DNA of 43,307 bases from Lachnospiraceae bacterium. Its GTDB lineage: Bacteria > Bacillota > Clostridia > Lachnospirales > Lachnospiraceae. The first letter of the stretch is position 1, and each line of letters begins with the position of its first letter. Below are positions 12,490 through 43,307 of this stretch, piece by piece. A program made the translations under genes and the position numbers. The notes under the pieces are model-generated. The model ran no database searches. It was not told the origin of the DNA and saw nothing but the letters and a program-made list of their open reading frames with translations. The stretch is taken from positions 1-43,307 of the forward strand of contig JAGCUO010000095.1 in the NCBI GenBank assembly GCA_017962825.1, read 5' to 3'.

Positions 12490-12498
12490 CTCCGTCTC

Positions 12499-18754: not shown

Positions 18755-18772
18755 TCTGTCTCTTCCTTAAAT

Positions 18773-19552
18773 TCACTTAACGGTATTCCATTTCAATACT
18801 CTCTTCTCAACTCTTCTCAAGATCACATTGATCAGGAATCCGATAACTCCTACCACTAATACACCGGCAAACATCGTAGAAGGCTGAGCCATCTCTCGAT
18901 AATACGAGATCATAAATCCAAGTCCCGCAGATGCCGCTATAAGTTCAGCGCCTATAACACTGATCCATGCACTTCCGACTCCAACACGAAGACCCGTGAA
19001 AATACCCGGAAGAGCGGCAGGGAACATTACTTTTGTGATCTCGATTTTTTTTGACTTCAAAAAAATCTTTGATACTTCAACATATTTTCTGTCAACATTT
19101 CGGATACCGTCCGATGTGTTCAGATATACGGTCCAAAAAGTTCCGATCATGATCACGATTATTTTTGAAGTCTCTCCTATTCCGGTCCAAAGGATCAAAA
19201 CAGGGACCCAGGCTATTATCGGGATCGGTCGTATCAGCTCAAAAAGAACCGATACGATCTTTGTGGCTGTTTTCGACAGTCCCGTGATTATTCCGATCAC
19301 TATTCCGAGAGAAGCTCCGAGAGCATATCCCACCAGCACTCTTCTCAAACTCACTAGGATATTTACGGCAAGCTTTCCGCTTTCTGCCTGCTTTACAAGG
19401 GATCTCCATATTCTTGCAGGTGATGGTAATAATGAAGCATTTATCAATTCCAAATTCGATGCAAGCTGCCATATGAGTATCAGTCCCACAGGAAGTATTA
19501 TTCCCAGCCAGGATTTGGATCTGACAAAGCTCCTTATCTTTTTCTTTATCAT
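18773..19552 (-). CDS. SsuC/TauC-like ABC importer permease, copy 1, 259 aa
   Basis: Six hydrophobic segments and the binding-protein-dependent permease EAA region (VMFPAALPGIFTGLRVGVG near residue 180) define a BPD_transp_1 permease of the sulfonate/nitrate/taurine group. Starts at ATG 23 nt after the binding-protein gene. It should form the membrane channel with the neighbouring ATPase. Confidence 0.92.
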   Translation of the reverse strand: MIKKKIRSFVRSKSWLGIILPVGLILIWQLASNLELINASLLPSPARIWRSLVKQAESGKLAVNILVSLRRVLVGYALGASLGIVIGIITGLSKTATKIVSVLFELIRPIPIIAWVPVLILWTGIGETSKIIVIMIGTFWTVYLNTSDGIRNVDRKYVEVSKIFLKSKKIEITKVMFPAALPGIFTGLRVGVGSAWISVIGAELIAASAGLGFMISYYREMAQPSTMFAGVLVVGVIGFLINVILRRVEKRVLKWNTVK

Positions 19553-19575
19553 CCGATCACTTCTCCAATTCTCTT

Positions 19576-20655
19576 TTAGTTATCCTCAAGTCTCAAAGCT
19601 TCTTCATAATAAGAAGTGTTGATCGGAACATTCACATCAAAATCATTCTCGATCAGATCATTTTCATAGAGATAATTGATGTTGTATTCTAATGCATCGA
19701 TCTGCTCTGCATTAAACGGCTCATATCTCTCAAGTCTTGTGTATGTAACATATGTCGACTCGGAATTTCCGGTTGCTTCAACCAATGCTTCAATAACAGG
19801 ATGACTGTCCTCAAGCACTCCGTCCTCATACTGTCTGAATACCTGAATATACTTTGCTACGATCTCAGGGTTGGAACGGGCAAATGAAGCATTTGCAGCG
19901 ATGATGTTGGGGGAAATAACGTTATCTGCATTGATCCTCCATACAGCTTTTATTCCTTCGGTATTTTCTATCAGGGATGTAAAGGGTTCCCATGTTGCAA
20001 CGGCATCAATTTCACCTCCAACAAGAGGAGTCAGTGAATCTGCTGCCGCCAGATTTACGATCTCAATATCCGCTTCGCTCAATCCGTGTGCTTCAAGTCC
20101 CTGCAGGAAACTGATATGTGCCGCAGAGCCCACAGCAGTCGCAACTTTTCTTCCCTTCAGATCTTCAAGGCTATTGATTCCCGAATCCTCTCTTACCAAA
20201 ACACCTGTATTCGAGAAATCCGTTATCTGCTGATAGATAAATTCCACATCGGATCCGTTTGCATAGCTGGTAAGAGCAGGCGCAGCTCCAAGACCGGTTG
20301 CAATATCAATATCTCCTGAAGCCAGTGCTTCCATCATGGGAGGTCCATATGTGAAAAGTTCCCATTTAACTTCGATACCTTCATTTGCAAAGAAATCTTC
20401 CACAAAATGTGTCTTGCTGTTAAGTTCATAAAGCCCCATTCCGGCCTGATATCCGAGAACTATGGTAGTTGTTTCATTCAAGCCTTCGCCTGTCAGTACG
20501 GTATTGTTTTCATCAGCATCCGCAGACGTAGCAGCAGCCGATACCGTACTGATATCATTGCCTGTTACTGATCTTGTGCCGCAGCCTGCAAGGCTTCCGG
20601 CAGCCAAAATGATCGCCGATCCGATGGTCAAAATCTTTCTAAATTTATTTTTCAT
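19576..20655 (-). CDS. SsuA/TauA-like substrate-binding lipoprotein, copy 1, 359 aa
   Basis: A lipoprotein signal (basic MKNKFRK, hydrophobic stretch, lipobox LAGC with Cys near residue 25) is followed by a low-complexity linker and an NMT1/SsuA-like periplasmic-binding fold (GYQAGMGLYELN, DIATGLGAAPALT, KVATAVGSAAH, AVATWEPF). Presumably anchored outside the membrane, it captures the transported compound, probably an organosulfur anion by family and context. A tRNA-Cys-like gene lies ~55 nt upstream of the start codon, so the mRNA leader may include it. Confidence 0.92.
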   Translation of the reverse strand: MKNKFRKILTIGSAIILAAGSLAGCGTRSVTGNDISTVSAAATSADADENNTVLTGEGLNETTTIVLGYQAGMGLYELNSKTHFVEDFFANEGIEVKWELFTYGPPMMEALASGDIDIATGLGAAPALTSYANGSDVEFIYQQITDFSNTGVLVREDSGINSLEDLKGRKVATAVGSAAHISFLQGLEAHGLSEADIEIVNLAAADSLTPLVGGEIDAVATWEPFTSLIENTEGIKAVWRINADNVISPNIIAANASFARSNPEIVAKYIQVFRQYEDGVLEDSHPVIEALVEATGNSESTYVTYTRLERYEPFNAEQIDALEYNINYLYENDLIENDFDVNVPINTSYYEEALRLEDN

Positions 20656-20712
20656 AAAATCTTCTCCTCATTTTCTTAATTTCATCATTTGGTTCTTACA
20701 AATATTTGCAGA

Positions 20713-20782
20713 TGACACCGGCAGGATTCGAACCTGCATCTTCAGTTTTGCAAACCTATGCCATACCAGCGGCCACGGCATC
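20713..20782 (-). tRNA. tRNA-Cys(GCA)-like gene
   Basis: Cloverleaf readable on the minus strand: acceptor GATGCCG/CGGTGTC (two G-U pairs), D arm GCC/GGC with GG-T-A in the loop, anticodon loop TTGCAAA (anticodon GCA, Cys), T arm GCAGG/CCTGC with loop TTCGAAT. The anticodon stem has an A-G mismatch and a G-U pair. With the flanking T and A added the acceptor becomes 8 bp and the next base is U, the usual CysRS discriminator; with a 7-bp acceptor the discriminator is A. No CCA is encoded. It starts 3 nt after a terminator hairpin and ends ~55 nt before the SBP start. Confidence 0.8.
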
Positions 20783-20784
20783 AT

Positions 20785-20826
20785 AAAACCGGAGGTTTTA
20801 AGTTTTTCACTTAAAACCTCCGGTTT
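20785..20826 (-). terminator. Strong hairpin after the second PNPOx gene
   Basis: Eighteen-bp perfect arms (20786-20803 and 20809-20826), AAACCGGAGGTTTTAAGT type, with a 5-nt loop and TTTT on the minus-strand 3' side. It closes the copy-2 operon and immediately precedes the tRNA-Cys-like gene. The preceding ACTGACCGG.AAACCGGAGGTT segment is nearly identical to that before the metK terminator at 26530. Confidence 0.75.
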
Positions 20827-20838
20827 ACCGGTCAGTCC

Positions 20839-20877
20839 TTACAGCCTAATCTTTTTAATCTTCACCTGCTGATTTAA
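20839..20877 (-). pseudogene. Remnant of a second yezD 3' end
   Basis: In one frame the minus strand encodes L-N-Q-Q-V-K-I-K-K-I-R-L then stop, matching the C-terminus of YezD (intact copy at 26597 ends Q-I-D-K-N-E-K-I-R-L, stop). The match continues past the stop as TAAGxACTGACCGGxAAACCGGAGGTT (about 25 of 27 bases). There is no start codon or N-terminal part: it directly follows the PNPOx stop. It appears to be a deletion remnant of a yezD gene and its terminator, showing that the two loci share ancestry. Confidence 0.65.
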
Positions 20878-20888
20878 TTAGTCTGTTA

Positions 20889-21365
20889 TCACTTGTAATA
20901 ATCGGGATTTACATCTTTATCAAGATGTCCGAGAATAGGATACTTTGCCTTCTGCTCAGCTATCCTTGTGGGAAGAGTCAGATCTCTGAATTCGGTAGGT
21001 TCTATATACCACACACCCGCAAGATCATTTTCGGGATTTCTTTCGAGAGCTGCTACATATGCCTTCTCGTATACCGGTCCCTCGATCAGAACCTTTCTGG
21101 GTATTCCGCGGACCTGATACTCTGTCGCCCCGGGTCCCCAGAAAACTGCAGCCACTTCCTTGTCATACCAGAGGCTGTATGTAAGATTCTTGTTTGTCTG
21201 CGAGGTTTCAAGGAGTTCATTTACAACCAGGAGACCGTCTTCATAATGAAGAGATCCTTTGAATGCTACATTCACTCTTCCGTCTTTATCAACCGTGGCC
21301 AACGCTTTTTTTGTTTCTTTTCCGTTGATCACATCTATTACTTCCTGTGTAAGTGTTACGCTCAT
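20889..21365 (-). CDS. PNPOx-fold flavin-binding protein, copy 2, 158 aa
   Basis: Split-barrel flavoprotein like copy 1 at 12004, with the shared SSQ/TSQTNKNLTYSLWYD motif near residue 62 and ILGHLDKD near the end. The start is the ATG at 21365, which has AAGGGGG upstream; the longer frame to 21434 overlaps the radical SAM gene. Located 10 nt downstream of that gene, repeating the copy-1 gene order. Confidence 0.83.
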   Translation of the reverse strand: MSVTLTQEVIDVINGKETKKALATVDKDGRVNVAFKGSLHYEDGLLVVNELLETSQTNKNLTYSLWYDKEVAAVFWGPGATEYQVRGIPRKVLIEGPVYEKAYVAALERNPENDLAGVWYIEPTEFRDLTLPTRIAEQKAKYPILGHLDKDVNPDYYK

Positions 21366-21375
21366 ATTATCCCCC

Positions 21376-22632
21376 TTACCAATAAATTCTTCCGATATCC
21401 GTATTGGGATGATTACCGCATCTTCTGTAATCATCGAAATAGGGTTTAAGGTTATATTTGATGTTTATCTCATTAAGTCCCTTGGCAAGAGCGACGTAAT
21501 AATCCAGCGAAGGAACAACCTGATTGTGGAATATTCCGCAGACGCCCCATACTATGTACGCGATGGATACGCCATGCTTTGCAAAATCCTCGGCCTCTGC
21601 AAGATACTTCTCAAGAGCTTCTTCCTCGGTCTTAAAACCGTTAGGCTGTGCAAGTTCTACGCCACCGACGATTCCGGAGTTGACATTTCCCTCTCCGAAC
21701 ACTTCAACTGCATCGAAGATTCTCTTTTTCCACTCGTCATACCCGATATGTGCTGCTTTTCCGGGGCAGATCCACTCGAAGAGCTCCTTATTCATAACCT
21801 CGATATCCGAAGTATATCCGATTATACCGGTAGCTTCCTTGAGTCTCTTCAGCTGTTCTTTATCATATGCAGATGCAATGAGCTGTACTTTAAGATCATT
21901 GGTCTTGAAGATAGGCTTGATCTTTTCAAAAGCCTTAATGATCTCATCAACCTCATCATCAAATACCTTCTTTCCGGTAAGGATGGATCCGGTGGTGACC
22001 ATGATCATTGCATAACGTCCCTTTTGCTTAACTGCTTCAGCTACCGCCTCAGCAACCTCATCATAATCGAAGAGATCTGGAATACCCTTCTTAACGGAAT
22101 CGATTCCGTTTATTCCTACGTTGCAATACTTACATCCTTCACCGGGTTTATCCCAGAAATGACATACACGGCTTATTGCTACGTTAAGTCTCTGAGGTCT
22201 TACATTTACGACTTCTCCCATGGGAGTTCCCTTGCTGGTCTTCTTCCTGTAGAAATCGGGCTCGCGCCAGAATTCAACCTCCTCATACACCTTGCCGTTA
22301 TCGGTGAGGAAAAACTTTCCATCTATATCATCGATCACATAAGGATCTCTGATCCCGTAATTGGTATAATATCCTCCTACAAGAGAAGTTCCGTCTCTGA
22401 AAACAAGACCGATGGGAATCTTATTTTCTCCCTCCTTCTTACCGAAGATGGTATCTGCCTGGCTCTGATAATCTCCCTTATTAAAAAGGTCCTGAGCTTT
22501 CTCGCTTAAGATATATCCTCTCCTGTGTACATCCGTCTTTAAAATGACGATTTTGGGAATCTCGGGATATTTTTCAAATACTTCTTCAATGGAAAGTTCC
22601 TTCTCCCTCCAGTTCTCTATCTTTGTTTCCAT
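21376..22632 (-). CDS. Radical SAM protein with CX9CX2C cluster motif, copy 2, 418 aa
   Basis: Cluster motif C-H-F-W-D-K-P-G-E-G-C-K-Y-C near residue 157 (CX9CX2C). The N-terminal ~145 residues and the barrel (IMVTTGSILTGKK, FEWICPGKAAHIGYDEW, NVNSGIVGGVELAQPNG, C-terminal YFDDYRRCG) match copy 1 along the whole length. Starts at ATG with GGAGG upstream, 15 nt after the importer ATPase. No HgdB-type genes accompany this copy. Confidence 0.86.
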   Translation of the reverse strand: METKIENWREKELSIEEVFEKYPEIPKIVILKTDVHRRGYILSEKAQDLFNKGDYQSQADTIFGKKEGENKIPIGLVFRDGTSLVGGYYTNYGIRDPYVIDDIDGKFFLTDNGKVYEEVEFWREPDFYRKKTSKGTPMGEVVNVRPQRLNVAISRVCHFWDKPGEGCKYCNVGINGIDSVKKGIPDLFDYDEVAEAVAEAVKQKGRYAMIMVTTGSILTGKKVFDDEVDEIIKAFEKIKPIFKTNDLKVQLIASAYDKEQLKRLKEATGIIGYTSDIEVMNKELFEWICPGKAAHIGYDEWKKRIFDAVEVFGEGNVNSGIVGGVELAQPNGFKTEEEALEKYLAEAEDFAKHGVSIAYIVWGVCGIFHNQVVPSLDYYVALAKGLNEINIKYNLKPYFDDYRRCGNHPNTDIGRIYW

Positions 22633-22647
22633 TTCAACCTCCGTTTA

Positions 22648-23421
22648 TTAAATCGCGTAATCGATCTCGTGCTCGCTGTCTTCAAAGAATTCTTTGTAAA
22701 TCTCTTTGGTATAATATGCGAAATCTTTTGACCCACGTATCTTGGGATATGCAAGATCTATATTTAAGATCTTCTTGATACGTCCCGGTCTTTCGGACAA
22801 TATGACTACCTTGTTGCTCAGATATACAGCTTCCTCGATATCATGGGTAACCAGGATCATCGTTTTGTTTTCCTGTTTCCAGATCTTAAGTATCTCGCGC
22901 TGCATATTGATCCTTGTAAGTGCATCAAGCGCACCGAAGGGTTCGTCAAGGAGCAGTATATTGGGATTGGAGATCAGTGCTCTTGCAATACTGACTCTCT
23001 GCTGCATTCCTCCGGACAACTGTTTCGGAAGTGCATTTTCAAATCCGTTCAGTCCTACCATGTTGATGTATTTCTTGATCAACTCATCTCTTTCGGACTT
23101 TGGAACACTTTTATCAAGTCCGAATCCGATATTCTTATATACATTTCTCCATGGAAGAAGTCTCGCTTCCTGAAACGCCATCTTACACTCGAGTGCAGGT
23201 CCGTTTACCGCATTATCATTTATCAGGATTTCTCCCTCGATCGTGGATTCAAGTCCCGCGATCATCTTAAGCAGTGTACTTTTACCGCATCCGGATGATC
23301 CGACTATTGAAACAAACTCGCCTTCTCTCACATCAAAGTTGATATCGTTAAGGATTTCTTTGGTTTCTCCGTCTATGGTGAATTTCTTGTTCACATTTTT
23401 TATCTGTACTATTGTTCCCAT
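22648..23421 (-). CDS. SsuB/TauB-like ABC importer ATPase, copy 2, 257 aa
   Basis: Walker A GSSGCGKST, Q-loop FQEARLLPW, signature LSGGMQQR, Walker B ILLLDEPFGALD and VTHDIEEA are intact. The start is taken as the ATG at 23421 with AGGTGA upstream; a GTG at 23430 overlapping the permease stop is possible. Paralogue of 17969. Confidence 0.92.
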   Translation of the reverse strand: MGTIVQIKNVNKKFTIDGETKEILNDINFDVREGEFVSIVGSSGCGKSTLLKMIAGLESTIEGEILINDNAVNGPALECKMAFQEARLLPWRNVYKNIGFGLDKSVPKSERDELIKKYINMVGLNGFENALPKQLSGGMQQRVSIARALISNPNILLLDEPFGALDALTRINMQREILKIWKQENKTMILVTHDIEEAVYLSNKVVILSERPGRIKKILNIDLAYPKIRGSKDFAYYTKEIYKEFFEDSEHEIDYAI

Positions 23422-23426
23422 ATTCG

Positions 23427-24197
23427 TCACCTGTACCTGAATAAATATTTCTGAAGTTTCAGAACAAGGAGATCTACCACCAATCCGAATAATCCGATCT
23501 CTATTATTCCCACAAACAAAATTCCCGGCATTGCCATATTTCTTGCATACATTATTCTGTATCCGACTCCTGCGGATGCTGCGATCATCTCCGCAGTTAT
23601 TACGAATCCGATGGATGAAGTGATGCCGATCCTGATTCCCGTATATATTGAAGGGAATGCTGCAGGGAAAACGATCGACTTAACGATCTCTTTCTTACTC
23701 TTTCCGAGATTGATTCCGAGTTCTATCAGCTTTTTATCGACACCTTTTATTCCGTCTATTGTATTGATCAGAAGTGCCCAGAAAGTACCGAGTGCGATGA
23801 CCATTACTTTTGATTCTTCACCGATACCGAGCCACAGGATAAAAAGTGGAATAAGTGCAATAATGGGAACCGGCCTGAAAAGTGCGATAAATACTTTTGT
23901 GAGATTGTCCACTACAGGGAGCATTCCTACCAAAACACCGAGTACGATTCCTACGCTCGCTCCGAGGGCGAAGCCTTTCAATATTCTTGAAAGGCTGCAG
24001 AGAGCGTCCTCGACGAAAATGTTTTTTTCAAGCAGATAGGAAAGTGATTCTTTAACCGTCTTCGGTGCCGGGATGATGGAAGCTTTGACCCACCCGAATT
24101 TGGTCGAAAGAAACCATAACAGGATAAGTGCTATCGGAAAGAAAGAGAATGTAAGCAGATCAAGTATTCTGTTTTTACTTGCATTTGCACTAAGCAT
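23427..24197 (-). CDS. SsuC/TauC-like ABC importer permease, copy 2, 256 aa
   Basis: Six predicted spans and the EAA-type loop (VFPAAFPSIYTGIRIG near residue 180) of sulfonate/nitrate/taurine importers. The ATG follows the binding-protein stop by 2 nt, with its ribosome site (GAGGAG) inside the end of that gene, indicating tight coupling. Confidence 0.92.
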   Translation of the reverse strand: MLSANASKNRILDLLTFSFFPIALILLWFLSTKFGWVKASIIPAPKTVKESLSYLLEKNIFVEDALCSLSRILKGFALGASVGIVLGVLVGMLPVVDNLTKVFIALFRPVPIIALIPLFILWLGIGEESKVMVIALGTFWALLINTIDGIKGVDKKLIELGINLGKSKKEIVKSIVFPAAFPSIYTGIRIGITSSIGFVITAEMIAASAGVGYRIMYARNMAMPGILFVGIIEIGLFGLVVDLLVLKLQKYLFRYR

Positions 24198-24199
24198 CT

Positions 24200-25294
24200 T
24201 TACTCCTCATACAATCCGACCGCCTTTACATAGCTGTCATCATAGATATCTTCAACATTTACCTGAACCGTGATAAGTCCGTTGTCATACATGAATCCGA
24301 TATATCCCTCAAGATCGGATGCAATTTCGTTATTTCCGTGATTGTTGTAATTCTGTACGGGAAGTGCATTTCTGATAATGTCGGGATCTGTTCCGTAATA
24401 ATCCGATGCTATGCGAACCGTCTCTTCAGGATTCTCTTCGATGAACTCGATTGCTTTTCCGAAGAGTGCGACAATGTTAAGTACGATATCGGGATGCTCA
24501 GTAGCAAACTCATCCTTAACGGTAAGAATGCTCTTGGCGATTCCGAGTCCCGTTGCATCTGCGATGATCCTGAATTCCGTTCCATTATCCTTGGTTGCAT
24601 TATCAAAGATGGTTTTATATCCGACAGAAACATCAACCTCACCTGCTTCAAGTACAGTGGCTGCGGTGTTGAAGTCTATATTGATAAGCTGAATATCATC
24701 TACGGTAAGCCCGGCTTCTTCAAGTCTCTTGATCAGGAAACTGTGTCCGTTGGATCCGATGGTTACCGCTACCTTCTTGCCCCTAAGATCTTCAACGGTC
24801 TGAATATCCGAATCTCCTCTTGTCACGAGAAGGATATTCTGCTCCGCATCGTCAATAAGACTTATAGTCTTGATATCAACTCCGTTTGCTGCGCCGGATA
24901 CCGCAGGCTGAAGACCGAGCTGTGCGAAATCAATCGCGCCGGCGGTATATGCTTCAAGCATTTCGGGTCCGTTATTGAACTTTGCGATATTGATCTTGAT
25001 TCCGTAAGGAGCAAACACTTCATCAAACCATCCCTTTTCCAGAATTATGGGAACAATGTAATAGCCCTGCTCCGCAATGGTTACCTCAATATCTCTTGAG
25101 GTAACTTCTATTCCCGTAAAAGGAACTCCCGCAGCTGAATCACCGGGTTCCTGCGCAGATGCTGTGATCGTAGTGGAGGGAACCGATGCTGTTTCGGATC
25201 CCGATGATCCGCATGCGGTGGTAAATACCAATGCTCCGAGTGCTGCCAGAGTTATAAGCACTCTGCTTGCTGTTTTAAAACTTATCTTTTTCAT
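24200..25294 (-). CDS. SsuA/TauA-like substrate-binding lipoprotein, copy 2, 364 aa
   Basis: Lipoprotein signal MKKISFKTASR, hydrophobic core and lipobox FTTAC (Cys near residue 28), serine/threonine-rich linker, then an NMT1/SsuA-like binding fold (DFAQLGLQPAVSGAANG, KVAVTIGSNGHS, DVSVGYKTIF). Diverged from copy 1, so the two importers may have different ligands. It starts 29 nt after metK with GAGGAG upstream, so it is probably cotranscribed with metK. Confidence 0.91.
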   Translation of the reverse strand: MKKISFKTASRVLITLAALGALVFTTACGSSGSETASVPSTTITASAQEPGDSAAGVPFTGIEVTSRDIEVTIAEQGYYIVPIILEKGWFDEVFAPYGIKINIAKFNNGPEMLEAYTAGAIDFAQLGLQPAVSGAANGVDIKTISLIDDAEQNILLVTRGDSDIQTVEDLRGKKVAVTIGSNGHSFLIKRLEEAGLTVDDIQLINIDFNTAATVLEAGEVDVSVGYKTIFDNATKDNGTEFRIIADATGLGIAKSILTVKDEFATEHPDIVLNIVALFGKAIEFIEENPEETVRIASDYYGTDPDIIRNALPVQNYNNHGNNEIASDLEGYIGFMYDNGLITVQVNVEDIYDDSYVKAVGLYEE

Positions 25295-27118: not shown

Positions 27119-27187
27119 GTGACAGTGGGGACGTACCCCTTTGTCAGGAAGTCCCTCCTGACAAAGGGGGTACGTCCCCACTGTCAC
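27119..27187. repeat. Palindromic intergenic repeat, type 2
   Basis: Arms 27119-27147 and 27158-27187 (one extra G in the right arm), 10-nt loop, core GGGGACGTACCCC. It ends 10 nt before the stop codon of the GH13 gene on the minus strand; the flank CACTGTCAT is an extra partial half. Confidence 0.93.
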
Positions 27188-33940: not shown

Positions 33941-33987
33941 GGGGACGCTTCTGTTTTGACACCTGGTCCCAAAACAGAAGCGTCCCC
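33941..33987. repeat. Palindromic intergenic repeat, type 1, degenerate centre
   Basis: Seventeen-nt perfect arms GGGGACGCTTCTGTTTT / complement (33941-33957 and 33971-33987) with a changed centre, followed by two ACTGTCAT copies. Located between the convergent coaX and peptide-gene ends, so it may terminate both transcripts. Confidence 0.88.
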
Positions 33988-34013
33988 ACTGTCATCACTG
34001 TCATTCGTCAAGA

Positions 34014-34100
34014 TCAAAGTCCGAATCTAAAACATCCTATAACCGGAATTCCCTTATTGAAACATCCTGACTCTGCAACACTGTTCAAACAAAAAATCAT
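34014..34100 (-). CDS. RiPP precursor-like peptide B, 28 aa
   Basis: Below usual length cut-offs. The ATG at 34100 has AGGGG 8 nt upstream and lies 14 nt after the radical SAM/SPASM gene stop. The peptide starts M-I-F-C-L-N-S and contains the core G-C-F-N-K-G-I-P-V-I-G-C (residues 12-23) before an F-R-F-G-L tail. It aligns along its whole length with peptide A at 41464 (LNS, GCF, G-[IL]-P, GC conserved). Two cysteines nine residues apart inside a glycine/proline framework are plausible maturase targets. Likely a substrate of the adjacent enzyme. Confidence 0.78.
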   Translation of the reverse strand: MIFCLNSVAESGCFNKGIPVIGCFRFGL

Positions 34101-34114
34101 TTTCAATCCCCTTT

Positions 34115-35341
34115 CTATAAACCATATACTTTCTTTAATGAAGTAAACTTTTTATCCAGATTACTGTAACTGAGGTCACATATATCTGAATTTTTATATA
34201 TACTTCCCGTGCTCAGATAACTTCTTGCGCGGCATCCGCCTCCGCACAGATAAGCATACTTACACGATTTACAACTCTCCAGTGAATTGATATCCAGATT
34301 CAAAAATGGATTTGTATCGGAATAAATAATATCCTTAAGCTTCTTATCCAGAAGATTTCCCAATTTCAGTTCATCTACATGAAGCATGTGGCAGGGAAAA
34401 ACCGTTCCGTCAGCGGCGATGCTTACCATCATCTTACCGGCAGCACATCTGGATTTACATGAAAGGCCTTCACTTTCCATTGCAGAATCCGTTATCACCG
34501 CTTTATTGTGATTCACATACTCTTTGACTATCTCGAAGTCCTCATCCGTCAGTATGTAATCTTTAAATGCTTCATCATCCGGAGAAGTAGTCAGCATGCT
34601 GAAATTATGGGTCACTCCAAGATCCTCAGCCATCTGTCTGTATTCATACAGATAATTTGCATTTTTATGATGGAGCGTAAATATCAGATTTACGACCGCT
34701 CCTTCTTCTTTCAGCATCCTGACAGTTTCAAGAACCTTCGGCATGGTTCCTTCATCCCTTATAAAGCTTACCCTTTCATTATATCCGTCAACCGATACGC
34801 TGATACGGTCTATATAAGGAAGAGCCTTCTTATATCTGTCATGAGGCATGGTGCCGTTGGTGATGATCTTGGTATACATACCCAAGTCTTTGGCATATTT
34901 ACATATCTGATCAATATCTTCCCTCAGGAAAGGTTCACCTCCCGAGATCACTATGACCTCAAGTCCGTTTTCCGCCAGTTCATCCAGTTCCCGGCAGATC
35001 TGTTCCAATGTAAGATCCTTCTTGCAGTTTCTTCCGTCCACATACGAGTAACATCCGACGCAATGGAAATTGCATCTGTCGGTAACGTGAAAATATGCCG
35101 ACACAAGTTTGTTTTCTTTTTCCCCGTCACTGCTGAAAAACCTTCCGTCCCTGAACGCATAATACAGGGGCTGGATATTTTCAGCGACTTCAGGATTTTT
35201 TCCGTCCATTATCTCCTGAACGAATTTCGATCCGTTGTCATCAAGTCCGATAAGGGAACCTGTACGATTATTACCGATCATTCTGATCCCATCGATTTCA
35301 AATCTGATGATATCGGAATGAAACTTTTCCTTTGCTTCCAT
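34115..35341 (-). CDS. Radical SAM/SPASM peptide maturase, 408 aa
   Basis: An N-terminal ~75-residue region, partly PqqD/RRE-like in position only, precedes the canonical radical SAM motif C-N-F-H-C-V-G-C (Cys90, 94, 97), VISGGEPFLRED and a C-terminal SPASM domain with many cysteines (SCKSRC near 295, FPCHM, ESCKSCKYAYLCGGGC, DICD) for two auxiliary [4Fe-4S] clusters. This is the architecture of RiPP-modifying enzymes that make thioether or C-C crosslinks. Start ATG with GGGAGGT; its leader has a hairpin touching that site and LytTR-type direct repeats 65-95 nt upstream. Confidence 0.92.
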   Translation of the reverse strand: MEAKEKFHSDIIRFEIDGIRMIGNNRTGSLIGLDDNGSKFVQEIMDGKNPEVAENIQPLYYAFRDGRFFSSDGEKENKLVSAYFHVTDRCNFHCVGCYSYVDGRNCKKDLTLEQICRELDELAENGLEVIVISGGEPFLREDIDQICKYAKDLGMYTKIITNGTMPHDRYKKALPYIDRISVSVDGYNERVSFIRDEGTMPKVLETVRMLKEEGAVVNLIFTLHHKNANYLYEYRQMAEDLGVTHNFSMLTTSPDDEAFKDYILTDEDFEIVKEYVNHNKAVITDSAMESEGLSCKSRCAAGKMMVSIAADGTVFPCHMLHVDELKLGNLLDKKLKDIIYSDTNPFLNLDINSLESCKSCKYAYLCGGGCRARSYLSTGSIYKNSDICDLSYSNLDKKFTSLKKVYGL

Positions 35342-35352
35342 TTATGTACCTC

Positions 35353-35368
35353 CCAACGATTACGTTGG
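35353..35368 (-). other. Small hairpin abutting the maturase ribosome site
   Basis: CCAACG-n4-CGTTGG; the 3' arm runs into GGGAGG on the minus strand, so folding could partly mask the ribosome site and lower maturase translation. Confidence 0.5.
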
Positions 35369-35377
35369 TCGTATACT

Positions 35378-35438
35378 ATCATATATAATCTGATGATTTT
35401 TTCTTACTGTAATTATTTGTCGCTTTCAATGTAATTAT
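35378..35438 (-). promoter_or_regulatory. LytTR-type direct repeats and promoter of the maturase-peptide B unit
   Basis: Plus-strand TGTAATTAT at 35408-35416 and 35430-35438, 22 bp apart, separated by a tract including TTTCAA; a further ATGTAC follows. TATGAT (minus, 35383-35378) lies 24 nt from the proximal repeat. The same pattern, with TTTCAATGTAA identical, is found at 41660-41690. It overlaps the 3' end of the kinase gene. Confidence 0.65.
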
Positions 35439-36681
35439 CAATGTACAACAAAATATTTACGGTAAAGACAGCTCCATCATCCGACACATCGAATGTTCCG
35501 TTATATTTTTCAACAGTGTTTTTTACTATATCCAATCCAAGTCCGTGCCAGAATGAGTCCTTGCTGTATTTTACAGGTTTCCCGATGTAAGGATTCGATA
35601 CCTGTATCACCAGTGCATTGGCATTATAGAACATAAACCATTTGATCACCCGGTCTTCGATGTTATCATTTCTGAGTGCATTAATGGAATTATCAAGAAG
35701 ATTTCCGAATATCTTGATGCTGTCCTGATATGAGATGGGAATCATGGAAGGGATATTGATATCCTTCTTCACCTCGATACCCAGCTGTTCAGCAAGTGAA
35801 AACTTTATGTTCAAAACCGTATCGATCGCATCATTTCCGGTAGACACTACTCTGTTCAACCTGTATTGTTCCTTCAGCAGTTCACCCAGATAATCCTTGG
35901 CCTTCCCGTATTCTTCATCATCTATCATGCTCGAAACAACCTGCAGATTATTTTGCATATCATGCTTGATCTTCCTGAGAACATTCTGGTTATCCGAAAG
36001 AGTCTCATAATACTGACGCTGCCACATTATAAGCTTCTCATATTCCTCTTTCTGCTTTTTGGTCTCATAAGAGGAACTTATAATATCGTACAGATAGAAC
36101 ACCACAACATTCATATACAGGATCAGCAATGCGATCGGAAGGAGAAGTTTCATTTCTCTCTGACGCGAGATCTCATACATCTGCTCGCTTATAAGGACCA
36201 TGCATGGCATGGAGATAAAACTGATCAGGGGAACGGATACAAGAATAAGCAATAGTCTTATATCTATGCTTCTTCCCTTAATGGTCTGGTATCTTGCTAC
36301 GATCTCAAGAGTGATATAGAAAACAAGATGAGGAATAAAGAATGAATATATCGTATTGGACGAACAGTAATTGATCAGATACATCAGCGTTTGTGAAAAT
36401 CCGGCAAACGCAAGAAGAAGCAGTGCATATACCGCCTTATTCCTCCCGGACCCTTTATATGCCGGGAGATATATGCAAGTCCAAATGGACAGAGAAACCA
36501 GATTGCAATAAGGCAATTCCGGCACTATGAACAGAGTAAACAGACAAGTGAATATCACGACCGATGCAATGATAAACACATTTCTTTTCTTGCCGGTCTC
36601 CAATAGTCTGCCAAAATAGTGAAGTATTACAACAACATCAAATAAATTGATAAGCAAAGAGATCATAATCCCATTCTCCAC
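35413..36681 (-). CDS. AgrC-like sensor histidine kinase (GHKL type), 422 aa
   Basis: About six to seven membrane spans in residues ~1-205 are followed by a coiled segment with the H-box-like RKIKHDMQNNLQVVSSMI (~240) and a HATPase_c_5 domain (FGNLLDNSINALR, then FWHGLGLDIVKNT). This is the peptide-pheromone receptor architecture of AgrC/ComD. It overlaps the regulator gene by 19 nt. The ligand may be a mature form of peptide A or B (inference). Confidence 0.9.
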   Translation of the reverse strand: MENGIMISLLINLFDVVVILHYFGRLLETGKKRNVFIIASVVIFTCLFTLFIVPELPYCNLVSLSIWTCIYLPAYKGSGRNKAVYALLLLAFAGFSQTLMYLINYCSSNTIYSFFIPHLVFYITLEIVARYQTIKGRSIDIRLLLILVSVPLISFISMPCMVLISEQMYEISRQREMKLLLPIALLILYMNVVVFYLYDIISSSYETKKQKEEYEKLIMWQRQYYETLSDNQNVLRKIKHDMQNNLQVVSSMIDDEEYGKAKDYLGELLKEQYRLNRVVSTGNDAIDTVLNIKFSLAEQLGIEVKKDINIPSMIPISYQDSIKIFGNLLDNSINALRNDNIEDRVIKWFMFYNANALVIQVSNPYIGKPVKYSKDSFWHGLGLDIVKNTVEKYNGTFDVSDDGAVFTVNILLYIDNYIESDK

Positions 36682-37376
36682 TTAAGATATCTCATATGCT
36701 CAAGTTTTACGCTTCTTTGATACTTCCTGCTTATCGGCAGGTGCGCACCGTTATTGAGTACTATTTCGTCCGTATAAATAGCCTTAACATAATCCATGTT
36801 CACTATAAAAGAAACATGAATTCTTACAAACCAGCTGTTGTCCACCATTTTTTCGATATCTGACATTTTGGAATAGAAAGAATATGTCTCCTCCGGAAGA
36901 TAAACATTCACCTTACGTTTATCCCCTTCGAAATACATTATGTCTTCACAACAAAGCTGTATCTTGGCCTTATCAACAGAAATGAATATATACCTCTTAC
37001 TGGTATATATATAATTCACGGCAGCATGAATGACATTTTCAAGTTTTTCACGGTCTACGGGTTTATTAATAAAACGGAACGGCTGAACTTCAAATGAACT
37101 GAACACATAATCCGAATAAGCCGTAACAAAGATGATGATAGCTCTTTTATCTATCTCTCTTATCTGTTTGGCTGTTTCGAGTCCGTTGATCCCGGGCATT
37201 TCAATGTCCAGCAAATAGATCTGATAGAAGTTTTCTTTACTGTCGGAAATATAACGGAGCAGACTCTCACCGTTCTCAAAGCATTCAACTTCTGTTTCTC
37301 TGAGCTTCAAGCCGTCTACCACGTCTTCGAGGAGAGCAAGGTTCTCTTTACTGTCGTCACAAATGGCAATTCTCAT
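36663..37376 (-). CDS. LytTR response regulator (AgrA-like), 237 aa
   Basis: Receiver domain with acidic CDDS near residue 6, phospho-acceptor Asp57 in YLLDIEMPG, FVTAYSDY and NKPV; the LytTR DNA-binding domain covers ~137-237 (MYFEGDKRKVNVY, WFVRIHVSFIVNMDYV, LPISRKY). It probably binds the 22-bp-spaced direct repeats found at 35408 and 41660. GGAG lies 10 nt before the ATG. Confidence 0.93.
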   Translation of the reverse strand: MRIAICDDSKENLALLEDVVDGLKLRETEVECFENGESLLRYISDSKENFYQIYLLDIEMPGINGLETAKQIREIDKRAIIIFVTAYSDYVFSSFEVQPFRFINKPVDREKLENVIHAAVNYIYTSKRYIFISVDKAKIQLCCEDIMYFEGDKRKVNVYLPEETYSFYSKMSDIEKMVDNSWFVRIHVSFIVNMDYVKAIYTDEIVLNNGAHLPISRKYQRSVKLEHMRYLKWRMGL

Positions 37377-37420
37377 ACTACAATCACTCCATATGATCCA
37401 GCAAATCCCCTCAATTTCTG

Positions 37421-37429
37421 ATTATATCA
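37421..37429 (-). promoter_or_regulatory. Extended -10 promoter of the regulator-kinase genes
   Basis: TGATATAAT on the minus strand, overlapping the stop codon of the ABC exporter gene (its TAA lies in TATAAT). It would give an independent basal transcript for the signalling pair. Motif only. Confidence 0.5.
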
Positions 37430-39110
37430 TGCCGGCCTCCGCTTCTCTATCAGAATATTTATTTTTTTCTCTTAAGCATATATCCCGGAACAATCCGTTT
37501 TTCCCCATAAGGCTATCGTATGTCCCGGCCTCTACTATCTTTCCTCCCGCCATTACAAGTATCTTGTCAAAACCTGCCAGAAACGCCCCTATCCGGTGTG
37601 TTACCACGATGCAGGTTTTGTCGCAGCCCAGCATTATATCCCTTATCCGGTCTCCCGTCTCAACATCAAGGGCAGAATCCGGTTCATCCGCCATAAGCAC
37701 GGTTGAGCCCTTAAGCATCTCTCTCAGAAAAGCTATTCTTTGCCTCTCTCCGCCGGACAGTTCACCGGTTTTATTTTCACCGTCATCCTTAACCAGTCTG
37801 AGAGTATCCAAAGAAGCTGCCAGTTCCAAATAAGTCTCATCGGACTCGTGTTTTCCCGACATAAAGATATTTTCTGCGATCGTATCCTTGAAAAGGAAAA
37901 CCTGCTGAGGAAGATAGGATACATTTTTCCAAAAACCCGTATCTTTGATCTTCTTCCGTTCTGTTCCGTCGATGTTTATTTTTCCTTTATAAGAATGAAT
38001 GTCGTTCACACCCGCAAGAACTTTCAGAAGCGTACTCTTCCCGCTTCCGTTCTCGCCGACTATTGCATATTTCTTACCTTTTTCAAACTCACAGTTGATA
38101 TCATTCAATATCAAAGGAGCTTTATCCGAATATCCGAAATACAAGTGTTCGACCCTGATCTTGTCGTTCAGGTTAAAATCCTCATCTCCGTCATTTCTTC
38201 CCGCGGATACAAACTCCGCGTATTTATCCGCTATAGGCTTGGCTGCTTTGATATTACCGAGTGCCGTCATAACTCCCATCAAAGGTCCTTCCACATTAAA
38301 CAGCAGTTGAATAAGAGCTATCAATTCGCCAACGGTTATCACTTCTCTTATAACGGATTGCCCGCCCCATATGAAGATCATCAGTGTAAATACAGTTGTA
38401 ATCAATATAAGAGCAGACTGAAAGACTGCCATTACAAGAGAGTATTTCATCTTGGCGTTTTCATTGTCTCCCGCAGCTGCTTCGCATTCGTAAATCCCCT
38501 TATCCTCCGCAGAGAAAGTTCGAAGTGTTATAAATCCGTCCAACATCTCGTCGAACTTTTCCATAGATCTCGAATTTGTTCGTGTAAGGAGAGTATTCAG
38601 TTTCTTTACGGTCTTTCCGAACAGAAGCGGAATAATGACGGAGACTAACGCAAGCAGCACTACCAATACAACAAAATCAATATTGATCACCATTATTGCC
38701 ACGGTAGACATGATCATCAAAACCAGCTTTTCCGCCAGTTCAAATTTACCGGACAATATCTTCTGTTCATATATATTCAGATCATGAAACAGAAATGACT
38801 GATATTCACTCTTATCCCGTTTCATAAAAAAGCTTACATCATAATTAAATATACTTTTGATAAAACTTGATTTAAGCCTCATCATCTCAGCCTTAATGTA
38901 TCCGGTTTTTCCTTTTATATATATATAATGTCCTGATGCCTGTATGATCACCACAAACACAGCCAAAAGAATATACCGGCCAAATGCGGTATATTCTTTA
39001 TCGATAAGACTGTCGGTAATCAGTTTAAAACACCATGAAAATAATATTACCGATATGTTGTATATCAGCATGGATATTAATGCTATTATCAAGCGAGACC
39101 ATTTCTTCAT
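37422..39110 (-). CDS. ABC exporter (fused membrane and ATPase domains), 562 aa
   Basis: Six-span ABC_membrane domain (~1-310) and a full ATPase domain: Walker A GENGSGKST (~352), Q-loop LPQQVFLF, signature LSGGERQR (~450), Walker B LMADEPDSALD and H-loop VTHR. There is no N-terminal C39 peptidase domain, so leader removal must be done by another protein. It probably exports the modified peptide. It lies 9 nt after the CPBP gene. Confidence 0.9.
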   Translation of the reverse strand: MKKWSRLIIALISMLIYNISVILFSWCFKLITDSLIDKEYTAFGRYILLAVFVVIIQASGHYIYIKGKTGYIKAEMMRLKSSFIKSIFNYDVSFFMKRDKSEYQSFLFHDLNIYEQKILSGKFELAEKLVLMIMSTVAIMVINIDFVVLVVLLALVSVIIPLLFGKTVKKLNTLLTRTNSRSMEKFDEMLDGFITLRTFSAEDKGIYECEAAAGDNENAKMKYSLVMAVFQSALILITTVFTLMIFIWGGQSVIREVITVGELIALIQLLFNVEGPLMGVMTALGNIKAAKPIADKYAEFVSAGRNDGDEDFNLNDKIRVEHLYFGYSDKAPLILNDINCEFEKGKKYAIVGENGSGKSTLLKVLAGVNDIHSYKGKINIDGTERKKIKDTGFWKNVSYLPQQVFLFKDTIAENIFMSGKHESDETYLELAASLDTLRLVKDDGENKTGELSGGERQRIAFLREMLKGSTVLMADEPDSALDVETGDRIRDIMLGCDKTCIVVTHRIGAFLAGFDKILVMAGGKIVEAGTYDSLMGKNGLFRDICLREKNKYSDREAEAGMI

Positions 39111-39119
39111 ATCTTAAGT

Positions 39120-39752
39120 TCAATTTAAAACAGATGTTGTTATCAGATTGTTGGCTAAATGAAGAGTGACCGGGAGCCAAAGTGTTTCATTTCTCGCATA
39201 TATAAGTCCCAGGATAATTCCCATGGGAAATCTGTATGAAAGATTTACATAGAATGAGTCACTGGAATGAAATACAAACGCAAAGACTGCCGCGCATAAA
39301 ATGACCACAAATACTTTTTGGTCCGTTATCCGTTTTCCGAGATAAAAGAGCACGCCCTTGCTAAAGAATTCTTCAGCAAAAGCTATTCCCAGATTTTGAA
39401 GAAGTACGCTCACAAACAGTGCAGCGCTAAACATAGGCCGATTCATCATCAGCCATATAAGTACAGCTGCCATGATAAGCATGGCTATTGCCGGTTCATA
39501 TCTCCTCGGTTTTTTTATCCCCAAATCCGAAATCGGTACGGAGTACGCCTTTCTCAGGATCAGATACGGTATAATGCAAAAACCCGACAACATACTTGCC
39601 CATGTCACAAGGACTCCTGCCAGTCCGGAACGTGAAAAACTCGTTATATTAAATAATTTGCTGAAAGCCAGTCCGCACAGAAGTACCGCAACCGCTCCCA
39701 AAAAAGTTATTCCCGCAAAAACGGACAGATTTTTTACCTTATTCTTCATCAT
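39120..39752 (-). CDS. CPBP-family intramembrane metalloprotease-like protein, 210 aa
   Basis: Six to seven spans with the CPBP (Abi/Rce1-like) motifs: EEFFSKG (~128), FVFHSSD (~160) and a late LHLANNLI. The usual EExxxR motif has Lys in place of Arg, so activity is uncertain. The ATG at 39752 overlaps the permease stop (TGATG). Such proteins mature or give immunity to peptides in bacteriocin loci; here it could process peptide A/B or protect the producer. Confidence 0.82.
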   Translation of the reverse strand: MMKNKVKNLSVFAGITFLGAVAVLLCGLAFSKLFNITSFSRSGLAGVLVTWASMLSGFCIIPYLILRKAYSVPISDLGIKKPRRYEPAIAMLIMAAVLIWLMMNRPMFSAALFVSVLLQNLGIAFAEEFFSKGVLFYLGKRITDQKVFVVILCAAVFAFVFHSSDSFYVNLSYRFPMGIILGLIYARNETLWLPVTLHLANNLITTSVLN

Positions 39753-40549
39753 CAAAATTCTTTTCTGTCAAATGACTTCAAACCCCATACCGTAAGAAGC
39801 ACGAAATATATAATCGAGACAAGCACCTGTCCCATGACTGTTTTCAACACGAATCCCGGTTCCATGATAACTACATCCGTTGTTTCAAGTACGTCATATG
39901 CCAGAGTGTAAATGTAACTCATGGGATTCACGTATTTGATAAATGTATAGGTAAGCACATGATTACATACAACCGTCAGCCCGAAAGCTGCAACAATAGC
40001 CATAAGAGGTTTCAGTTTTATCCCCACAAACAATGCGAATTGAGGCATCAGGAAATACGTGAACAGAAATACCATAAGGCCCATTCCCAGAAGTGCGCCT
40101 ACGTTATTTCCCGTAAGAGTACCCGATACGAACTTACTGCCGCTAGATACGATCCACGCATATACGCCCAGAAGCACGAGCACCGTAAACAGGAAAAATA
40201 TTACCGATATAATGATCAGCGAAATACTTTTAGCCAGGTACAGCTTCTTTCTGTTTCTAACCCTGACAGTGAAGAGGGATATGCTGCCGTTATCGATCTC
40301 ACTGGAAAGCATCTGGGTTCCTATAAATGCACAGACAACAGGTCCTATGAACAAAACCGTAGATGTGAGAAGCTGAACCACAAGCCAAAGCAGTGCATTT
40401 TGATTCTCCGTTCCTTTAAAGCTCTCATCGCGCATTCCCACTGCATATATAAATGTCATCGCCACAATTGCAAAAACAGCAAATATGTCGCGACGTCTCA
40501 GAAATTTCATCAGTTCTATTTTTATAATTTGCCAAATTGATATTTTCAT
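39752..40549 (-). CDS. ABC-2 type transporter permease, 265 aa
   Basis: Six predicted spans (near residues 20-38, 65-90, 105-130, 145-168, 178-198 and 235-255) with the ABC-2/BcrB layout. Its ATG follows the ATPase stop by 2 nt. Together they form a two-component exporter as in bacitracin or lantibiotic self-protection (BcrAB, LanFE). Confidence 0.87.
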   Translation of the reverse strand: MKISIWQIIKIELMKFLRRRDIFAVFAIVAMTFIYAVGMRDESFKGTENQNALLWLVVQLLTSTVLFIGPVVCAFIGTQMLSSEIDNGSISLFTVRVRNRKKLYLAKSISLIIISVIFFLFTVLVLLGVYAWIVSSGSKFVSGTLTGNNVGALLGMGLMVFLFTYFLMPQFALFVGIKLKPLMAIVAAFGLTVVCNHVLTYTFIKYVNPMSYIYTLAYDVLETTDVVIMEPGFVLKTVMGQVLVSIIYFVLLTVWGLKSFDRKEF

Positions 40550-40551
40550 GA

Positions 40552-41382
40552 TCAGCCATCCTTAAATAAGTCATATAATGATGATTTTCGGATATCCAGA
40601 TTGATGATCTTTACACCGGAGGATTTCAAAGTAAGCAGAACCTCCATAAACTCATCCTGATCCTCGGTTTCCAATTTCTCCGTTTTGTTTTCATCATTCG
40701 ATGAAACATATTCGGCAATATAAGTCTTGGTGTATTCCATCACACCGTCGAATTTCTTCTCCCCGCCGTCGATGAGAACTATGCGGTCACAGATCTCTTC
40801 GACATCCTCAAGATCATGGCTGGAAAAAAGTATTCCAACCTTTTCTTCTCTCGCTTTTTGGATGATGATTTTTTTGAATATTTCTTTTCCGATCGGATCC
40901 AAACCGACAAAGGGCTCATCAAGTATCAAAAACTGGGGTTTATTCAACAAAGCCTGTGCCAATCCGAGACGTTGCTTCATTCCGAATGAATAGGCTCTGG
41001 TTTTTTCTCTTGTTTTATTTTTAAGACCTACTTCAGTCAGCAGTTCATCTATATTCTCCTCGTCGTCATATATACCGGTTATTTTAAGGAGAATATCCAG
41101 ATTATCATGTGCATTCAAATACGGTATAAATGTCGGTTCTATCAATATTCCAAATTCATTCAGACGATTTTCACTCTTAAGAAGTGTTTCACCTTTATAC
41201 AAAATATCTCCGCTCGTGGGATATATATAACCCGCGATACTGTTTAACAGAGTGGTTTTACCCGCTCCATTCTTGCCCAAAAGAGCAACAATTTCTCCGG
41301 CATTCACAGAGAAATTTAATCCTTTAAGGGCCTCAAATTCCCCGTATTTCTTTTTCAAATTCTTAATCTCAAGCAAAGACAT
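40552..41382 (-). CDS. ABC transporter ATPase (BcrA/LanF type), 276 aa
   Basis: Walker A GKNGAGKTT (~38), Q-loop/EPTFIPY, signature YSFGMKQR (~130), Walker B FLILDEPFVGLDP and SSHDLEDVE; a ~60-residue C-terminal extension follows, as in BcrA-type exporters. The start is set at the ATG at 41382, 10 nt after AGGAG; an upstream in-frame ATG at 41403 lacks a site. It follows the peptide A gene across a hairpin. Confidence 0.9.
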   Translation of the reverse strand: MSLLEIKNLKKKYGEFEALKGLNFSVNAGEIVALLGKNGAGKTTLLNSIAGYIYPTSGDILYKGETLLKSENRLNEFGILIEPTFIPYLNAHDNLDILLKITGIYDDEENIDELLTEVGLKNKTREKTRAYSFGMKQRLGLAQALLNKPQFLILDEPFVGLDPIGKEIFKKIIIQKAREEKVGILFSSHDLEDVEEICDRIVLIDGGEKKFDGVMEYTKTYIAEYVSSNDENKTEKLETEDQDEFMEVLLTLKSSGVKIINLDIRKSSLYDLFKDG

Positions 41383-41413
41383 ACATGTCTTTCTCCTCTT
41401 CATATAATCAATC

Positions 41414-41450
41414 AGTGGGATAGCATCCGTTTCCTCGACACTATCCCACT
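41414..41450 (-). other. Hairpin between peptide A and the ABC genes
   Basis: Ten-bp perfect arms AGTGGGATAG / CTATCCCACT (41414-41423 and 41441-41450) with a 17-nt loop; no T-run follows. Placed directly after a precursor gene, such stem-loops commonly act as partial terminators or as barriers to 3' decay so that precursor mRNA exceeds the downstream mRNA. Confidence 0.65.
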
Positions 41451-41463
41451 CAGAAGTTATTGC

Positions 41464-41550
41464 TTAGTCATCACCTACAACGATGCATCCGACGATGGGT
41501 AATCCAAACTGGAAACATCCGGTAGCTGCACTATTAAGATTAAACAGCAT
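41464..41550 (-). CDS. RiPP precursor-like peptide A, 28 aa
   Basis: ATG at 41550 with a strong AAGGAGG 8 nt upstream. The peptide begins M-L-F-N-L-N-S-A-A and carries the core G-C-F-Q-F-G-L-P-I-V-G-C (residues 11-22), then a short acidic end (V-V-G-D-D). It shares LNS, GCF, G-[IL]-P and GC with peptide B. It is the first gene after the LytTR-type operator, with a hairpin behind it. The leader would be only ~10 residues, unusually short. An unmodified pheromone is the alternative. Confidence 0.8.
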   Translation of the reverse strand: MLFNLNSAATGCFQFGLPIVGCIVVGDD

Positions 41551-41629
41551 AGTTTTTTCCTCCTTATAAAATTTTTGGTCGGTTAACCTGTTCAGCGCCT
41601 TTTCTCGAGCCGGCCTTGTGAGGTTATGT

Positions 41630-41690
41630 TATCATCACTATGCTTACTTTTATCCCATATGTAATTATCAGTACATTTCAATGTAAAATA
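41630..41690 (-). promoter_or_regulatory. LytTR-type direct repeats upstream of peptide A
   Basis: Plus-strand TGTAATTAT (41660-41668) and TGTAAAATA (41682-41690), 22 bp apart, with TTTCAATGTAA shared with the maturase site at 35408-35438. A weak -10 (GATGATAAC region) lies about 24 nt downstream on the minus strand. The leader to the ATG is ~75-80 nt. The close match at two places in the locus supports a common regulator, probably the linked LytTR protein. Confidence 0.66.
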
Positions 41691-41756
41691 TGACAGTGGG
41701 GACGTACCCCTTTGTCAGGAAGGTCCTCCTGACAAAGGGGTACGTCCCCACTGTCA
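41691..41756. repeat. Palindromic intergenic repeat, type 2
   Basis: Arms 41691-41718 and 41729-41756 are perfect 28-nt reverse complements around 10 nt. It ends 13 nt before the GH43 stop codon side and abuts the distal LytTR half-site of the peptide A promoter, repeating the arrangement at 7062. Confidence 0.94.
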
Positions 41757-41769
41757 TCACTTAATGATC

Positions 41770-43261: not shown

Positions 43262-43307
43262 GTGACAGTGGGGACGCTTCAATTTTGTCACCCGGTGACA
43301 AAATTGA
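43262..43307. repeat. Palindromic intergenic repeat, type 1, cut by window edge
   Basis: Begins GTGACAGTGGGGACGCTTC and passes the central GTCACCCGGTGAC; the right arm is only partly inside the window. Same family as at 1-52. Confidence 0.88.

Follow-up and report, generated by a model that had tools for sequence, protein, structure and literature searches.

We analysed a 43,307-nt contig of a Lachnospiraceae bacterium (GenBank assembly GCA_017962825.1, contig JAGCUO010000095.1; hereafter the window), which carries on its minus strand a locus where two 28-codon open reading frames (ORFs), W1 and W2, bracket seven genes, among them one for a predicted radical S-adenosylmethionine (SAM)/SPASM peptide maturase of 408 aa (34115..35341; assigned from NCBIfam, Pfam and a profile search of the PDB). 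The minus-strand order is W1, ABC-2 ATPase, ABC-2 permease, CPBP protein, ABC exporter, LytTR regulator, GHKL kinase, SPASM enzyme and W2, with intergenic gaps of -19 to 71 nt. W1 (41464..41550) runs from ATG to stop as MLFNLNSAATGCFQFGLPIVGCIVVGDD behind an AAGGAGG, W2 (34014..34100) does so as MIFCLNSVAESGCFNKGIPVIGCFRFGL behind AAAGGGGA, and the W2 start lies 14 nt past the SPASM stop. An earlier note on this DNA had described the two homologous genes with their ribosome sites, the 14-nt spacing and the seven intervening genes, and this layout was confirmed throughout.

W1 and W2 align with a local BLOSUM62 score of 74, compared with a top score of 50 in 20,000 shuffles. The shared feature is larger than the GCF...G...GC core pointed out in the earlier note, as the second Cys also opens a C-x3-G unit, giving CFQFG and CIVVG in W1 and CFNKG and CFRFG in W2. 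The window holds 846 candidate start-to-stop frames 20-45 residues long, and among them such a double unit was found only in W1, in W2 (with its alternative starts) and in one other frame, at 31322 on the plus strand, which has no visible ribosome site.

Nineteen further short ORFs were found beside related SPASM enzymes, making with W1 and W2 a set of 21 precursors at 11 loci, namely the window, nine other genomes and one Streptococcus salivarius plasmid (loci and genomes carry our L and G labels below), spread over five bacterial families (f1, f5, f55, f188 and Streptococcaceae). All 21 start with ATG, mostly begin ML, span 28-44 codons and have a ribosome-site-like stretch; they occur one to four per locus, with four in tandem downstream of the SPASM gene in L012, four in L096, three in L037, two in L019 and one each in L013, L014, L020, L022, L027 and L036. 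Precursors adjoin all eight of the closest SPASM relatives elsewhere (G139, G144, G251, G482, G855, G1215, G1395 and G1533); none was found beside five weaker relatives (G1134, G1122, G1371, G1420 and G1490, E 1e-61 to 1e-74; G1122 over 3.3 kb) or in the surroundings read of the SPASM relatives L021, L028, L029 and L038-L040. The earlier note's proposal of a radical SAM locus for ribosomally synthesized and post-translationally modified peptides (RiPPs) with twin short precursors had been tied in advance to conserved small ORFs beside homologous maturases, and the 19 ORFs bear it out. These results indicated that the short ORFs are real genes and belong to a peptide family found repeatedly next to enzymes of this type.

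Pfam gave no match for any of the 21 precursors and NCBIfam none above cut-off, with 18 lacking any match and the rest at chance level, far below cut-off (W1 to TrbC, 0.14; L096a to an SSB model, 0.0073; L096d, 0.17). Because of this, and because the S. salivarius precursor is absent from the gene table, itself incomplete, of plasmid record NZ_CP018188.1, such loci can pass for orphan SPASM enzymes. The precursor family is undescribed as far as the open-licence PMC literature shows, including the parts covered of PMC3132745 (Murphy et al.), PMC9062424 and PMC4289311; subscription papers, supplements and other preprints lay outside this search, and papers cited here by PMC number are represented by parts of their text.

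Several of these loci have features of their own. In L012 (G139), a 69-residue ORF at 9034-9243 on the plus strand ends 3 nt before the SPASM gene, matches nothing in NCBIfam or Pfam, and contains VGG followed by CILGCTTIC, a C-x3-C-x3-C arrangement of the kind used as a pattern for thuricin CD-like sactipeptides (PMC3132745). Next to the RiPP locus of L020 (G855) lies another set of radical SAM genes, again with a small ORF (524-3620, minus strand). In the SPASM gene of L022, two genes break the reading frame, one for an ISSag10-family transposase and the other a predicted lnu(C) (9852-12825 of NZ_CP018188.1), and that of L096 (10022-13598, G1544) is split around two ORFs, both of 317 aa with the same start and possibly transposases.

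We next asked how regular the motif is. When residues past position 8 were permuted in 5000 shuffles, C-x3-G was expected in 4.9 precursors on average (maximum 13) and a double unit in 0.09 (maximum 3); the observed numbers were 18 and 15 of 21. For the 14 precursors whose listing involved no C...G filter (but a ribosome site, looser Cys filters or none), the counts were 12 and 9; the L037 set had been listed through such a filter and the L096 set found by the precursor profile. Most other spacings fell below expectation (C-x0-G to C-x2-G, C-x4-G, C-x5-G and C-x7-G), with C-x6-G (6 vs 4.2) and C-x8-G (8 vs 3.6) above it. The double-unit consensus is [G/A/S]C-x3-G-x3-5-C-x3-G, the units standing 3-5 residues apart. 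In all 15 double-unit precursors, Gly, Ala or Ser precedes the first Cys, position 2 of the first unit is Ile, Val or Phe, and the i+4 Gly never changes in either unit, in contrast to the variable residues that separate it from the Cys. Every precursor has a core Cys (1-3 Cys in 28-44 residues), Ile and Val are frequent in the cores, and in an alignment of the first 17 precursors a single Cys and a single Gly are invariant.

Run on 40 whole genomes, a profile of 17 precursors matched 16 times at E ≤1.9e-6, always at a known precursor beside a SPASM gene, with no other match better than 0.035; as these matches are training members, the information lies in the absence elsewhere. In 13 genomes of G1533's family the profile brought to light a further four precursors, all in G1544 (E 5.8e-12 to 1.1e-4), which precede a SPASM gene, a CPBP gene and an exporter gene, and in three genomes of G144's genus it found, at E 0.001, the known precursor only. 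At E 0.01, 139 genomes of the phylum yielded the window's own precursors only, and 138 of the class yielded those of the window and of G855 together with a weak match in G787 (E 0.0049), which was counted as a false positive. A match in G1539 (E 2.5e-5), from the family of G1533, was also rejected as false, lying antisense inside what by eye is a transketolase-like ORF. The precursor profile matches almost only SPASM-linked precursor loci. When each group of loci was left out of the profile in turn, 15 of 21 precursors were still recovered at E ≤0.0016, and a profile without window sequences placed W1 first of 1515 window frames (E 2.8e-4). At the codon level, clear purifying, coding selection was found in the pairs L013/L014 (18 of 28 differences at third positions; ratio of nonsynonymous to synonymous differences, pN/pS, 0.18) and L037c/L096d (pN/pS 0.09).

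The maturase carries a SPASM domain (PF13186) above cut-off, and C299, C317, C357, C360, C366, C370 and C388 are invariant in eight aligned enzymes, a make-up (SPASM-type radical SAM enzyme with cysteines for extra Fe-S clusters) shared with sactipeptide maturases. Its radical SAM motif, CNFHCVGC in the window, ends in GC in all nine enzymes compared, L028 included. Searched against the PDB, the eight-member enzyme profile had as top match 5wgg (E 4.3e-31), which we take to be CteB, the thioether maturase of the SCIFF peptide, and SkfB, a sactisynthase, ranked fourth of 25. The protein is rare: at E 1e-40 or better it occurs in 4 of 397 genomes of the family, the window's own included, and at E 1e-20 in 2 of 31 of the genus, namely the window's own and one at 2.2e-24 in seemingly unrelated surroundings. 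At E 1e-60 or better the enzyme profile matched 2 of 392 genomes of the order, 2 of 391 of the class, 6 of 329 of the phylum and 4 of 120 of G855's family; the samples overlap, those of order, class and phylum count the window's own genome, and in the larger searches scoring was confined to the top few candidates of each genome. Among 72,556 plasmid records there was a single match, that of S. salivarius, over 63% of the query, and two further queries returned this record and no other. Phage records gave no SPASM match at 1e-15, viral contigs 19 weak relatives (E 4e-4 or better) and a genome contig scan one distant relative.

The transport genes and the protease recur with the precursors. Compared with the window proteins and counting the window, CPBP is present in 9 of 11 loci, an ABC exporter in 9 and an ABC-2 ATPase adjoining the cluster in 7. 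L014 stops at a contig end, L019 has no CPBP or ABC-2 match in the 12.2 kb covered, L012 has no exporter match in 19 kb, and a different ABC type follows in L036 and L037. The window's CPBP (Rce1-like) protein (39120..39755; PF02517) is a predicted intramembrane protease in which, by motif alignment, Lys replaces Arg in the first motif, and the EE pair, a conserved His and the C-terminal HxxxN/D are kept in all ten aligned proteins (nine precursor loci and L028). It could remove the leader, in the way that MroQ, a CPBP protein, matures AgrD-derived signals in agr (PMC10885120), or confer immunity; another parallel is the CAAX protease SilX, encoded at a bacteriocin locus of streptococci (PMC9298176). 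The exporter (37422..39110) combines ABC_membrane and ABC_tran without a peptidase domain match in Pfam or NCBIfam, as the earlier note had also read it. The ABC-2 permease (39752..40549; PF12730, PF12679) stands beside an ATPase (40552..41403; PF00005) whose best NCBIfam model is a lantibiotic-protection ATPase, at 179.1 bits below its cut-off of 309.75, and such pairs are more typical of immunity. Between W1 and the ABC-2 genes lies a hairpin (41404..41463; -22.9 kcal/mol, z -4.67). Folding of ten loci, L036 left out, gave a hairpin 3' of the precursor at z -3.15 or lower in eight (the window, L012, L013, L014, L019, L027, L037 and L096) and little beyond shuffles in L020 (z -1.58) and L022 (-0.75). 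The element looks attenuator-like and may let precursor exceed enzyme.

Elsewhere in the window, near-perfect palindromes built on GTGGGGACG stand at both flanks of the locus (~33941-34003 and 41690-41759); they look like repetitive extragenic palindromic elements, and a similar core recurs at ~7111, 11936-11991, 27125-27181 and 43268-43307. A sigma-70 scan of the locus gave 20 sites against 23.3 in shuffles, i.e. no excess. Positions 12499-25294 hold, as named by eye, two SsuABC/NrtABC-like transporter gene sets, each with a related protein of 418-429 residues, together with BadF/HgdC-like activase and dehydratase-like genes.

With a short conserved precursor gene linked to a SPASM maturase at every one of the 11 loci, the reading of the system as a radical SAM RiPP is strongly supported by sequence, and a thioether product is probable. 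Taken together, we favour, with some reserve, a locus that makes thioether-crosslinked RiPPs from two very short precursors. The C-x3-G spacing suggests that the bond is probably one from Cys sulfur to an alpha carbon, and by analogy with streptosactin and other thioether peptides we read each unit as Cys joined to Gly(i+4). In this scheme the SPASM enzyme would recognise the first 10-13 residues (often ML[F]...K...) and join the core Cys sulfur to the Gly alpha carbon, so that each peptide ends up with two small, un-nested rings (minus 4 H). Leader removal and export would then fall to the CPBP protease and the ABC exporter, the ABC-2 pair would protect the producer, the GHKL/LytTR pair would control expression and the hairpin after the first precursor would allow precursor in excess. 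The product most likely acts, as streptosactin does, as a narrow antimicrobial on close relatives. If true, a fixed ring rule in precursors of 28-44 residues would define a minimal radical SAM thioether substrate, simple to synthesise and vary. More tentatively, the loci may represent a widespread undescribed short-precursor family in which each C-x3-G is one Cys-Gly(i+4) sactionine ring, two identical un-nested mini-rings are the whole product, tandem paralogues form a cocktail and, where a locus is agr-like, the peptide is in addition an inducer of its own operon; we regard this extended version as possible rather than probable.

Several observations weigh against the thioether RiPP reading. 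Precursors were chosen by eye from small-frame lists, which favours Cys-rich ones. Three of 21 lack C-x3-G (L027, L036 and L096a) and six have a single Cys (these three, and L019a, L019b and L022, which keep C-x3-G), so that the enzyme family would need to handle other substrates. The held-out profiles missed six of 21: L027 (E 0.34, rank 2 of 1146 frames), L019b (0.78, rank 1 of 500), L036 (13), L019a (23), L096a (29) and W2 (39). W2 is tied to the family via W1 and by position, and membership is least certain for L019a, L036 and L096a. The protein-coding selection that the earlier note had proposed as a check is clear in two of seven tested pairs and not in the other five, whose pN/pS was 0.50 (L037a/L096b), 0.59 (W1/W2, 17 codons), 0.73 (L037b/L096c), 1.06 (L036/L096a) and 1.36 (the L019 paralogues), a pattern that would fit diversifying peptides without proving coding for each. 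As for the enzyme, anaerobic sulfatase maturases, which do not form crosslinks, take the next two places after 5wgg among the PDB matches, none of the best 25 of 92 matched NCBIfam models passes its cut-off, and the N-terminal 80 residues alone gave no match to a RiPP recognition element (Pfam, six enzymes; PDB, profile of eight); the full-length profile alignment reaches into the N-terminus of 5wgg.

The bond itself might be different, either a C-C crosslink or a non-alpha thioether as in ranthipeptides, and Gly would then be kept only for turn geometry, although we consider this rather unlikely. The nearest solved relative, presumably CteB, acts on a SCIFF peptide, and the Ile, Val or Phe at position 2 of the first unit offers an alternative acceptor. 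The SCIFF link is to C-gamma, and those of freyrasin and NxxcA to C-beta (PMC8326336). The constancy of the i+4 Gly among variable neighbours weighs against a non-alpha bond, as glycine has only its alpha carbon to offer.

The regulators bear on a second alternative, in which the modified peptide would be a dedicated pheromone, the ligand of the AgrC-like kinase that induces its own operon, with no antimicrobial role. The window encodes a GHKL sensor kinase (35413..36681; PF14501, with ~6 N-terminal membrane segments by hydropathy) and an AgrA-like LytTR response regulator (36663..37376; PF00072, PF04397) inside the operon, and such a pair also lies beside the cluster in L012, L022 and L019, i.e. 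in four of 11 loci. The window's CPBP protein also matches, weakly (21 bits, cut-off 270), the NCBIfam model of MroQ, the protease of AgrD-derived signals. The regulator type varies, however, with a kinase and by eye a LuxR-type regulator near L013 and L014 (the L013 kinase with HATPase-type matches only), a HisKA kinase in L020 and none noticed in the stretches of L027, L036, L037 and L096. In addition, L019 has its own agrD, which passes the NCBIfam cut-off, and an AgrB-like protein, which falls short of it, and an ABC-2 pair is more usual in immunity. Upstream of W1, a search for a LytTR operator, taken as 9-base direct repeats that match at 8 of 9 positions and lie 19-24 apart, found none. 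As regulators vary between loci and L019 carries agrBD, we downgraded signalling as the main role; a pheromone function is possible, the self-induction suggested in the earlier note finds weak backing, and a peptide devoted to it is doubtful.

A third alternative is that the enzyme epimerises Val or Ile and leaves Cys unbridged, as in epipeptides. EpeE epimerises Val/Ile of EpeX, whose operon holds a radical SAM enzyme and an ABC-2 pair, and epimerisation requires no substrate Cys. Frequent Ile and Val in the cores, and the processing of EpeX by the intramembrane protease EpeP (PMC10885120), fit this picture; the core Cys in 21 of 21 precursors, with Gly four residues on in 18, makes it very unlikely. 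That the ORFs are functionless chance frames is scarcely credible despite their shortness, the five pairs lacking clear purifying selection and the failure of other loci's profile to find W2, given that the family accompanies this enzyme at 11 loci, every ORF with ATG and a ribosome-site-like stretch, and that the W1-W2 score exceeds 20,000 shuffles.

We finally compared the preferred thioether RiPP reading with known systems. Like agr (AgrD/AgrB/AgrC/AgrA), the locus has a GHKL and LytTR pair and a CPBP protease as in MroQ processing, but the seven larger window-locus proteins gave no AgrB match in Pfam and W1 and W2 no AgrD match in NCBIfam or Pfam. The thuricin CD-like clusters of Clostridia (Murphy et al. 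2011, PMC3132745), which include Anaerococcus and Caldicellulosiruptor, likewise combine radical SAM and ABC genes with neighbouring small peptides that contain Cys; in the parts covered, their enzyme motifs are CNLRCKYC-like, whereas those here end in GC, and their peptides are of other sizes and motifs. Among 16 streptococcal Rgg-linked subfamilies, none is named for a C-x3-G motif in the text covered (PMC13361665); as the comparison was by name and not by sequence, the S. salivarius member could equal VSA, CGx, GRC or another of them.

The Cys-Asp bonds of freyrasin lie in C-x3-D units. Freyrasin (PapA/PapB), with six Cys-Asp thioethers (PMC8326336), and SCIFF peptides share with this system thioether-forming SPASM enzymes, the nearest solved relative among them, but they use Asp or other acceptors, beta or gamma carbons and six Cys, whereas the acceptor here would be Gly, with 1-2 core Cys. 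The PapB maturase model of ranthipeptides scored 80.9 bits (cut-off 340), and 1-3 Cys in 28-44 residues compares with six Cys in ~45 for SCIFF.

Streptosactin (GggA/GggB), a type II un-nested sactipeptide, is Rgg/SHP-linked (PMC13361665), whereas two-component or other regulators occur here, and its rings have Cys-x2-Ser/Gly spacing rather than Cys-x3-Gly. The best NCBIfam model for the window enzyme, the sactipeptide maturase StsB, reached 128.5 bits where its cut-off is 625, and the GggC exporter model reached 110.2 (cut-off 750); by the StsB model the enzyme does not match the streptosactin GGG subfamily. The earlier note had held that precursors this short, with so short a leader, match no RiPP family known to its author, a claim that finds no support in that form, as sactipeptide leaders span 8-29 residues (PMC8326336) and streptosactin crosslinks extend only to precursor residue 34 (PMC8172795). 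In streptosactin, two un-nested sactionine rings join Cys25 to Ser28 and Cys31 to Gly34 (PMC8172795; one passage prints Cys15 for Cys25), and the likeness would thus extend from the short precursor and SPASM enzyme to two small un-nested rings, each from Cys to a residue just downstream and, in streptosactin, one ending on Gly.

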